Assembly (NCBI GenBank): GCA_017992455.1
Contig: JAGOOP010000012.1
Location: forward strand, 1 to 51,560
Direction of reading: 5' to 3'
DNA from: Candidatus Omnitrophota bacterium
Lineage (GTDB): Bacteria; Omnitrophota; Gorgyraeia; Gygaellales; Profunditerraquicolaceae
DNA: 51,560 nt
The stretch's first letter is position 1. The number at the start of each line of letters is the position of its first letter. The notes beneath the pieces are model-generated. The model did no database searches. It saw only the letters and a list, made by a program, of their open reading frames with translations, and was not told the DNA's origin. Position numbers and translations under genes: made by a program. This document shows positions 7,438-15,894 of this stretch, one piece after another.

Positions 7438-7563
7438 GGCTAAAAACGGGGTCAGAATTATTTATTTGCTGCAATGGGCTGAGTTATCATAGGGACGGTT
7501 CTCGTAGAGAACCGTCCCTATGATTTCCTAAGCAAATAAATAATTCTGACCCCGTTTTTAGCC
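7438..7563. repeat. Nested palindrome: family 1 repeat enclosing family 2
   Basis: Two perfect 33-bp arms (7438-7470 and 7531-7563) carry the family 1 core GGGGTCAGAATTATTTATTT. The 60-base spacer contains a complete 35-bp palindrome of family 2 (7488-7522, core GGGACGGTTCTC with a 3- to 5-base loop). The right arm directly abuts the nitroreductase stop codon. Both ends read GACCCCGTTTTT outward, so the outer hairpin could work as a terminator in either direction. With the polA promoter and leader this accounts for the whole 315-base gap between polA and the nitroreductase gene. Confidence 0.9.
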
Positions 7564-12928: not shown

Positions 12929-14164
12929 TTATTGCCTCACCAGGCGGACAACGGTTTCCATATGCGGGGTATGGGGGAACATATCGACCGGATGGACCGC
13001 CTGCACGGAGTACGCGGGCAGGAGAGTTTTGAGGTCCTGTACAAGATTCCATGGATTACACGACACATACACCACATGGCCGATGCCGCTTTCGACGATG
13101 AATGCGCGGTCTTTTTTGGTCAGCCCCTGCCGCGGCGGGTCCACGATCAGGCAGGAATAGGAACGCAGCTTTCCCGATCCCGCTGCTTCGGCAAGGAATG
13201 CCTGAGCATCCCGGCAGACGAACTCCGCGTTGGACACGCCGTTGGCGCGGCAATTCGCCCGCGCGTCCTCGATATTCTGCTCGATGATATCGATGCCGGT
13301 CACGCGGCCGGCGCCCGCCGCGATCTGAAGGCTGATGCCCCCGCACCCGCAGAAAAGATCCAGCACCGTGCCCGCGCAGGGCCCGGCCTGGCCGCGGATG
13401 ACGTCATATAGCCGGCTGCAGCAATACGGATTCGTCTGAAAAAAACTCCGGGGGCGTATCCGGTAATCGATCCCGTTGACCTGCTCGCGGATGTACGGTG
13501 CTCCGTGCAAAAGCACCTCCCCGGTCCCGAGGGCCGTATCGCTGGCGCCGGGGTTCAGACTCACATACACGGACGCGACACTGCCTGTTGACGACAGCCG
13601 CTCGACGAGCGGGACAAAGATCTCGCGCCTGCGTTCGAACTCTTCAGTCCGCAGCCGGGCAGCGAGGATCACCATCACCTCGCCGGAAGCCTTACTGTGG
13701 CGCATACCGACATACCGCAGGAACCCTTTCTGCCGTTTGAGATCGTACGGCTCGACTTTGTATTCCCGTATCCAGCCGCGCACCTCAGCGAGAACGGCAT
13801 TGACCTGCGGGTAAAAGATCCTGCACTCGGAGATATCCACGACTTCGCTGAATTTCTCCTGCGGCCGCAGCCCCACGAGCGGCGCGTCGGCCGTACCGGA
13901 AACCGCGAACTCCATCTTGTTGCGGAAATGCCATATCTGCGGGGACGGAATGATATCGTGTACTTCCTGCGGATGGAACTGCGCAAGCAGGTTCGTTATA
14001 TAGGTCTGCTTATAGGCGAGCTGGTCTTGATACGAACGGTCCTGCGTCAGGCATCCGCCGCAGGCCCCGAAGGAAGGGCATAAAACGGGGTCAGAATTAT
14101 TTATTTGCCCGCCATGTGCACGCCGGCAAATAAATAATTCTGACCCCGTTTTTAGCTTTACCAT
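12929..14164 (-). CDS. rlmD: 23S rRNA (uracil-5-)-methyltransferase, TRAM-less
   Basis: A member of the RlmD/RlmC (RumA/RumB) family that makes 5-methyluridine in RNA with SAM. Iron-sulfur cysteines lie at residues 29, 35 and 38 (LCPSFGACGGC), the SAM motif in LDLFCGCGGISL, and the catalytic cysteine in VYVSCNP. The ATG at 14164 overlaps the DUF486 stop and gives 411 residues. Residues 4-28 are encoded by the palindrome at 14081-14154. The N-terminal TRAM domain found in RlmD is absent; RlmC lacks it naturally, so the exact target is uncertain. No in-frame ATG, GTG or TTG exists between the repeat and the first cysteine. Confidence 0.85.
   Translation of the reverse strand: MVKLKTGSELFICRRAHGGQINNSDPVLCPSFGACGGCLTQDRSYQDQLAYKQTYITNLLAQFHPQEVHDIIPSPQIWHFRNKMEFAVSGTADAPLVGLRPQEKFSEVVDISECRIFYPQVNAVLAEVRGWIREYKVEPYDLKRQKGFLRYVGMRHSKASGEVMVILAARLRTEEFERRREIFVPLVERLSSTGSVASVYVSLNPGASDTALGTGEVLLHGAPYIREQVNGIDYRIRPRSFFQTNPYCCSRLYDVIRGQAGPCAGTVLDLFCGCGGISLQIAAGAGRVTGIDIIEQNIEDARANCRANGVSNAEFVCRDAQAFLAEAAGSGKLRSYSCLIVDPPRQGLTKKDRAFIVESGIGHVVYVSCNPWNLVQDLKTLLPAYSVQAVHPVDMFPHTPHMETVVRLVRQ
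14081..14154. repeat. Family 1 palindromic repeat between DUF486 and rlmD
   Basis: Arms 14081-14109 and 14125-14154 carry the core GGGGTCAGAATTATTTATTT and flank a 15-base loop; they differ by one A. The right arm starts three bases after the DUF486 stop codon. The whole element is an open reading frame in the rlmD frame and forms residues 4-28 of that protein. Confidence 0.9.
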
Positions 14165-14487
14165 TTCTTGAAGATGAAGACGACCGCTGCGATCATGAAC
14201 ATGAAGCCCACGATATAATTCCACTTCAGCCCTTCTTTGAGGTACAGGACGGAAAAAGCGCAGAAAACGGCAAGGGTGATGACCTCCTGGATGGTCTTGA
14301 GCTGGGCGGTCGAATACCGGTATGAACCGATACGGTTGGCAGGCACCTGGAAACAATATTCGAACAGCGCAATGCCCCAGCTGGCAATGATCGCGATCCA
14401 CAAAGGACTGTTTTTATGTTTGAGATGGCCGTACCAGGCGAACGTCATGAAAACGTTCGATACGGTCAAAAGCAGGATTGTTTTCAT
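14158..14487 (-). CDS. DUF486 (DMT-superfamily) membrane protein
   Basis: This 109-residue protein has four predicted membrane segments and conserved DUF486 features (LTVSNVFMTFAWYGHLK, ASWGIALFEYCFQVPANR, QLKTIQEVITL). Such proteins resemble half-size drug/metabolite transporters; the substrate is unknown. The gene sits alone between a half copy and a full copy of the family 1 repeat. It lies 32 bases after the folD stop, and its own stop overlaps the rlmD start. The arrangement looks like an inserted cassette within the folate/rRNA-methylase neighbourhood. Confidence 0.93.
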   Translation of the reverse strand: MKTILLLTVSNVFMTFAWYGHLKHKNSPLWIAIIASWGIALFEYCFQVPANRIGSYRYSTAQLKTIQEVITLAVFCAFSVLYLKEGLKWNYIVGFMFMIAAVVFIFKKW

Positions 14488-14496
14488 AGCTGAAGA

Positions 14497-14522
14497 AAAT
14501 AAATAATTCTGACCCCGTTTTA
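14497..14522. repeat. Half copy of family 1 repeat at the folD stop
   Basis: A single arm with the core GGGGTCAGAATTATTTATTT, read on the minus strand, begins at the folD stop codon TAA and ends about 10 bases before the DUF486 ATG. No matching opposite arm is nearby. It is a direct repeat of the arm that lies just after the DUF486 stop. Confidence 0.85.
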
Positions 14523-15356
14523 CAGCCCTGCGGATTCGACGAGGTTGCGCATGAGCATGGTGACGGTCAGCGGCCCCACCCCGCCGGGCACGGGCGTGAT
14601 CCAGCCGGCGCGTTTTTCAGCGGCGTCGAACTCGACGTCGCCCACGATCTTGTCTCCCACCCGGTTGATGCCGACATCGATGACCACGGCTTTTTCCTTC
14701 ACCCAGTCGCCCTTGATGAGCCCGGCCTTGCCGACCGCGACGATAAGGATATCCGCCCTGCGCACGTGCTCCTCGAGCTTCCCCGCCTGCGAGGTGCCGA
14801 TGTGGCACACGGTGACCGTGGCGAGCTTATCGAGCAATGCAAGCGCGAGCGGCTTGCCCACGATCTCGCTGTGGCCGACGATAACGACTTCCTTGCCGGA
14901 ATAATGCAGGCCGATGGAATTCAAAAGTTCCATGACCGCCGCCGCGGTGCACGGCAGGACCTTGGCCTTACCGAAGACGATCCTGCCCATGTTCGCCGGA
15001 TGCATGCCTTCGACGTCCTTTTCCGGCGCGATATACTGGCTGATCTTTTTGTAATCCATATGCAGCGGCAGGGGCATCTGGATGATGATGCCGGAAACGG
15101 ACGCGTCATTGTTCAATTTCCGTATATATTCGACGAGCTTTTCTTCGCTCGTTTCTTTCTCGAGCGTATGGGCGTCGTATTCGATGCCCAGAAGCTCGGC
15201 ATTCTTCTTCTGCGATTTGATATACACATCGGACGACGGATTCACGCCGACCTGGATGCTCGATAATTTCAGGCGTTTCGGCGACGACAGGACCTTTGAT
15301 TTGATGATGCTCTTGATCTGATCGGCGATCAGTTTACCCTCTAACAATTTTGCCAA
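14520..15356 (-). CDS. folD: Methylene-THF dehydrogenase/methenyl-THF cyclohydrolase
   Basis: FolD interconverts 5,10-methylene-THF and 5,10-methenyl-THF with NAD(P), and usually also opens methenyl-THF to formyl-THF. The 278-residue protein has the catalytic lysine region (VYIKSQKKNAELLGI), QMPLPLH, PEKDVEGMHPANMG, a Rossmann motif VVIVGHSEIVGKPLA, and the C-terminal PVPGGVGPLT. The start is TTG at 15356, fixed by a GGAGGTG site; no ATG is available. It overlaps fchA by 23 bases. Its stop codon lies in a repeat copy. Confidence 0.95.
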   Translation of the reverse strand: MAKLLEGKLIADQIKSIIKSKVLSSPKRLKLSSIQVGVNPSSDVYIKSQKKNAELLGIEYDAHTLEKETSEEKLVEYIRKLNNDASVSGIIIQMPLPLHMDYKKISQYIAPEKDVEGMHPANMGRIVFGKAKVLPCTAAAVMELLNSIGLHYSGKEVVIVGHSEIVGKPLALALLDKLATVTVCHIGTSQAGKLEEHVRRADILIVAVGKAGLIKGDWVKEKAVVIDVGINRVGDKIVGDVEFDAAEKRAGWITPVPGGVGPLTVTMLMRNLVESAGL

Positions 15357-15894
15357 TGGACACCTCCGTATCTTGACGGATGGAACGGATCGCATCCCGG
15401 TACCCGTCCAGCTCGCGCCGGACCGTGCCGGCGCGTCCGTCATCCTTGAGCATTTTCAGATTGATGTCGACGTTCCAGTATGCGCCGGCGAATGCCGCCT
15501 CGATGAGCCCGATCGCGACCGCCACGTCGCTGGCAAGGTTGACGTTCCCCTTCACGCACAACAACGGGCACAAAGCCGCCGCCTCGCGGCAGAGACGGCA
15601 TATTTCAAGGGGGACGCGCAGCGACTGCTCGAGGTCGCCGCTGGAATAGGCGGCGACGTCTTCGTCGATAAGCCGAAGGAATGCCGCGCGGAGGCGTTCG
15701 GAATCCGCGCGGGCCGCAGCCATCTCCTGTTCGTACGCGGCGTATTTCGGCTTGCCGATGGTGAAATTGACGACCATGCTCAATAATCCCGTGCCGAGCG
15801 CCGCAGCCATCGCGCTTGCGGACCCTCCGCCGGGCGCGGGAAGCTTCGCGGCCAGATCGTCGAGATACCGGGCGACACTTGCATCCTTATACAT
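15334..15894 (-). CDS. fchA: Methenyl-THF cyclohydrolase / cyclodeaminase family
   Basis: The 186-residue protein belongs to the formiminotetrahydrofolate cyclodeaminase family: LPAPGGGSASAMAAALG near the N-terminus is the family signature, with GNVNLASDVAVAIGL in the C-terminal half. In acetogens FchA performs the cyclohydrolase step between formyl-THF and methenyl-THF. Coupling to folD by a 23-base overlap suggests this role here, although FolD itself is often bifunctional. The ATG at 15894 overlaps the yraN end by eight bases. Confidence 0.88.
   Translation of the reverse strand: MYKDASVARYLDDLAAKLPAPGGGSASAMAAALGTGLLSMVVNFTIGKPKYAAYEQEMAAARADSERLRAAFLRLIDEDVAAYSSGDLEQSLRVPLEICRLCREAAALCPLLCVKGNVNLASDVAVAIGLIEAAFAGAYWNVDINLKMLKDDGRAGTVRRELDGYRDAIRSIRQDTEVSIGKIVRG

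Follow-up and report, generated by a model that had tools for sequence, protein, structure and literature searches.

The leader of an RlmC/RlmD-type m5U methyltransferase gene, located in a window of 51,560 nucleotides (the whole stretch of DNA analyzed) from a Candidatus Omnitrophota genome, was most probably lengthened by a TIR dimer, which would have inserted behind a pre-existing rlmD start codon, kept the frame, added a disordered tail and brought in a hairpin weakening initiation (we put the probability of this reading at roughly 0.87). The element would be non-autonomous, and the same arms enclose the gene of the Y1/HUH tyrosine transposase which would mobilize it in trans. It would have inserted next to the DUF486 stop codon, between the old overlapping rlmD ATG and the codon of the first Fe-S cysteine, and since the frame would have been kept with no in-frame stop, RlmD would retain its old start and gain about 22 residues in comparison with the sister species. 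The direct support comes from the repeat family itself, its link with a transposase gene, a site that is empty in the sister species, the old start codon, the absence of the TRAM domain independently of the repeat, and the open frame.

The methyltransferase gene (positions 12929-14164, minus strand, 411 amino acids, TRAM-less) belongs to a minus-strand run consisting of folD (14520-15359; PF00763/PF02882), a single arm of the repeat, the gene encoding a DUF486 (DMT_6) membrane protein (14158-14487; PF04342, 163 bits) and the methyltransferase gene. The order folD-DUF486-rlmD-metF is common to this genome and to that of G001, a member of the same genus (JAKPTF010000113.1, MAG: Candidatus Omnitrophota) carrying no copy of the repeat. 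The rlmD ATG (14164-14162) overlaps the last codon and the stop codon of DUF486 (14160-14158) in the sequence ATGGTAA. The single arm (14497-14522, unstranded) lies at the folD stop codon and provides its TAA, and folD in G001, where the repeat is not present, ends with ...GGCATCTGA (ATC TGA).

The leader extends over 84 nt on the minus strand (14081-14164), starting with the ATG and ending just ahead of the C29 codon, and the initial annotation correctly described the repeat as an open frame encoding residues 4-28. The frame from the ATG reads MVKLKTGSELFICRRAHGGQINNSDPVL-C29PSFGACGGC; the peptides expected from the tail, if it is made, would include TGSELFICR and AHGGQINNSDPVLCPSFGACGGCLTQDR. 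The palindrome (14082-14152, unstranded) is made up of two inverted GGGGTCAG arms, forming a dimer, and is one of about 40 copies dispersed in the genome. It is 71 nt long and near-perfect, with two 31-nt arms (14082-14112 and 14122-14152) which are 97% complementary and separated by a 9-nt loop; the homology with the ends of the family may extend to about 14076-14156. The GCCCTT next to C29 may belong either to the host or to the element, the consensus end of which is AAGGGC, and the C29 codon may therefore lie at the edge of the element.

The protein scored 242.9 bits with TIGR00479 (RlmD; cut-off 183.55), the match starting at model position 57, and its Pfam match was PF05958. The RlmC models gave scores similar to or above that of TIGR00479, yet these were under their own strict cut-offs. 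The nearest solved structures in terms of sequence are 8z62, deposited as a U747 methyltransferase, and that of P. abyssi PYRAB10780 (2jjq). The name RlmD would best be taken here to mean RlmC/RlmD-type; the target uracil is not readable from the sequence. Among the features of RlmD (RumA), the Fe-S cysteines and the catalytic SCN(P) cysteine are present and the N-terminal TRAM domain is absent: C29, C35, C38, C114 and the SCN(P) nucleophile C369 are invariant in the alignment of 11 methyltransferase sequences, and no match was obtained in a profile search of the protein with TRAM (PF01938), in agreement with the absence of this domain stated in the initial annotation. The TRAM model does match elsewhere in the same genome, as well as in 14/14 control genomes. 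The comparison with G001 gave dN 0.20 and dS 0.98 (a ratio of about 0.2), which indicates that the gene body is under purifying selection on average, this average including the time before the insertion. The gene is patchily distributed: a search of 58 further genomes from the family gave clear full-length matches in just 3.

The transcript of the leader has a predicted folding energy of -53.7 kcal/mol (z = -7.97, equaled in 0 of 200 shuffles), and the corresponding stretch in G001 gave a z of +0.8. The hairpin begins about 12 nt 3' of the rlmD AUG, at the edge of the footprint of the initiating ribosome. The rlmD gene might be a young pseudogene in the process of being lost, its translation being shut off by the very stable hairpin behind the AUG, and the scarcity of the gene in the family is consistent with this idea. 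However, the 383 codons past the leader are intact, all the conserved catalytic and Fe-S residues have been kept, and the dN/dS ratio, averaged though it is over pre-insertion time, also speaks against this, which makes the loss of rlmD possible but rather unlikely. With the insertion behind the old start codon, the hairpin is likely to lower RlmD synthesis, and would most likely do so by weakening initiation and making it dependent on ribosomes finishing DUF486. In the AlphaFold model based on the 11-sequence alignment, residues 1-25 show pLDDT values below 50 and no secondary structure, whereas confidence is high from the Fe-S region onward and the rest of the model is at about 90. The added stretch most likely amounts to a tail of about 25 residues that is disordered and tolerated.

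Apart from the ATG at codon 1, the frame contains no ATG, GTG or TTG until codon 84, which bears out the claim made in the initial annotation that none of these codons occurs between the repeat and C29. With the repeat in frame and no plausible start other than the one ahead of it, a functional protein would have to be translated through it, and we infer that this is the case. The repeat might instead be a non-coding 5' leader, if translation began after it, either from a non-standard codon or from the ATG present at its edge (TTATGCCC), which is out of frame with C29 and would have to be combined with a frameshift. Rare-start candidates are indeed present inside the repeat (codon 12 is ATT and codon 21 ATA), and many REPs assigned to the N-termini of proteins have been reported to be in truth extragenic (PMC3733652). 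On the other hand, codon 84 is situated beyond the three clustered Fe-S cysteines, and G001 shares the upstream ATG, as does G015, another member of the family, so that a downstream start seems quite improbable.

The repeat is moderately abundant in the form of dispersed dimers: 86 matches were found genome-wide, at about 40 places, and 43 full or half copies were read; the consensus arm is AAGGGCTAAAAACGGGGTCAGAATTATTTATTT. A typical copy consists of two facing arms and a variable core, and mostly measures 61 nt, counted from the GGGG on one outer side to the CCCC on the other; GGGGTCAG occurs in nearly every arm listed. In one copy (7448-7553), a second palindrome (GGGACGGTTCTC...GAGAACCGTCCC) is nested in the loop, as is also the case at L074 1573-1676. 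The full copies are located at a median distance of 10 nt from gene 3' ends and about 70 nt from 5' ends, and the neighboring genes are mostly co-directional. These gene ends were obtained with a simple home-made caller based on codon usage, in which the most upstream start was taken, and the 5' distances are therefore approximate; the caller missed rlmD, the longest frame of which overlaps DUF486, and the 5' distance listed for the rlmD copy is wrong. With the same caller, no copies were found to lie wholly inside a gene.

Extended proteins were seen only in the case of rlmD (at the N-terminus), thiC and a NUDIX gene (at the C-termini). ThiC (L100 327-1661) carries a tail of 18 residues at its C-terminus, which comes from a repeat copy and ends in ...MEEKAKAKNGVRIIYSKKPACRNK, and the ThiC ends in G003, a further repeat-free relative, and G015 are short and unrelated to this tail. 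The NUDIX gene (L009 1930-2703), located beside the Y1 transposase gene, ends in ...KAKNGVRII, where AKNGVRII and the stop codon are encoded in the arm. A Pfam scan of ten ORFs overlapping copies gave a match for ThiC only; the other ORFs spanning copies, which had no Pfam match, were treated as spurious. A reading which we consider very unlikely is that the TIR dimer acts as a portable cassette for both control and coding, in which the open frame would have supplied the N-terminus of RlmD and the C-termini of ThiC and the NUDIX protein, the hairpin would set the ratio of DUF486 to RlmD expression, and some of the fusions would have been kept by selection. Stop codons are missing from 14% of the strand-frames in the 37 shorter full copies, which means that an open passage through the repeat is not rare by chance. 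There is a slight chance of a local misassembly at the rlmD repeat, the MAG being 89% complete, although usual reads are longer than the repeat.

The comparison with the repeat-free relatives shows what the site looks like when it is empty. In G001, the junction reads AAATGGTAATGCCCGCAGTGTGCCCG, with, counting from the first cysteine, an ATG at -6, an ATG at -4 and a GTG at -1, and rlmD starts in the same ATGGTAA overlap with the DUF486 stop, 6 codons ahead of the cysteine. The same overlapping start is present in G015 (ATGGTAATT...), where the sole in-frame start lies at -15, and RlmD in G003 begins 2 codons ahead of the cysteine. The fact that G001 and G015 share the overlapping start means that the rlmD start has been inherited. 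In comparison with G001, the leader shows a net gain of 66 nt, a multiple of three corresponding to about 22 residues, and the first cysteine has moved from codon 7 to codon 29. In G001, the 11-12 nt separating the DUF486 stop from the cysteine align poorly, and the 5' edge of the insertion is therefore placed only approximately; the length of the leader varies among the relatives aligned. The 2-15 codons present before the cysteine in G001, G003 and G015 are too few for a TRAM domain, the absence of which was judged in the relatives from this short space, since the Pfam model misses the TRAM-like N-terminus of L021. The class-level relatives mostly have the same short N-terminus, and G094 retains a longer, TRAM-like one. 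Going by these relatives, the start codon and the loss of TRAM are older than the insertion, and the repeat merely lengthened the leader. The suggestion made in the initial annotation that TRAM gave way to the repeat, which would also have brought in the start codon overlapping the end of DUF486, agrees with the lack of TRAM and with the overlap, but is refuted by the very comparison which it named for this purpose: repeat-free relatives from the same genus and family begin near the cysteine themselves (-6 in G001, -2 in G003, -15 in G015), with no room for TRAM and, in G001 and G015, with the same start. A domain "loss" can therefore be misattributed to a neighboring repeat.

The transposase gene which links this repeat to a mobile element is a Y1_Tnp gene on contig C4 (L009; 1177-1869), the arms being located at 1167 (+) and 1940 (-); the protein carries an HIH (HUH-type) motif. 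Among ten genomes, an arm-flanked Y1_Tnp gene was found in five of the seven with copies and in none of the three without. G005, G006, G038 and G053, which belong to the same family, each have copies and an arm-flanked Y1_Tnp gene, and neither was found in G001, G003 and G015. G014 and G052 have copies, and no arm-flanked Y1_Tnp gene was found in them, possibly owing to the incompleteness of their assemblies. A different 30-nt inverted repeat (AAAAAAAGGGGGACGCTTCCC...), perhaps belonging to a second TIR family, occurs near another Y1_Tnp gene (L011 1923-1995).

A search of the literature for the arm sequence itself yielded unrelated papers only. In TIRtrons, TIR arms sharing the motif GGGGWSAS flank TIRYT genes (Di Nocera et al. 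2013, PMC3733652), and the present repeat matches a TIRtron/TIRYT-associated TIR in its flanked transposase, its abundance and this motif, with which GGGGTCAG is in keeping. The solitary arms and inverted dimers are likewise scattered, here mostly just past gene 3' ends; the differences are that the repeat occurs in Omnitrophota and that one copy encodes an N-terminus. TIRYT genes and TIR dimers co-occur across Omnitrophota genera, which fits the descriptions available on other phyla.

The REPINs or REP doublets associated with RAYTs also consist of two short repeats in inverted orientation which together give a long hairpin, supposedly mobilized in trans by a Y1 transposase, whereas the arms here are not self-palindromic and it is the whole dimer that forms the palindrome. 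Assignment to the GTAG REPs or classical REPINs was rejected, as no GTAG tag was seen at the arm ends and a single arm has, by inspection, no hairpin of its own. The Rickettsia palindromic elements (RPE) are similarly carried in frame within protein-coding genes, and proteins decorated N-terminally with RPEs are expressed in R. conorii (PMC3733652). Their sequence and mobilizer differ, however, and RPE identity was rejected since the copies here are mostly intergenic and frequent in-frame insertion into ORFs was not encountered. As regards the protein, RlmC (RumB) and other m5U methyltransferases devoid of TRAM also start just ahead of the first Fe-S cysteine, but the present enzyme clears the RlmD (TIGR00479) cut-off and misses the strict RlmC ones.

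REP-type repeats have been found to give neighboring genes stop codons and proteins 20-30 residues, N-termini included; the intragenic cases described are GTAG and CGTC REPs, and the frequency of TIR copies in proteins is not stated (PMC3733652). The rlmD gene thus provides a clean case of a housekeeping protein lengthened N-terminally by a transposase-linked palindrome, with no start codon downstream and with an empty site to compare it with inside the genus. It is of an ordinary, well-documented kind, in which a TIRYT-linked palindrome extends a protein, probably by being read in frame, and what is unusual is the position occupied by a known repeat.
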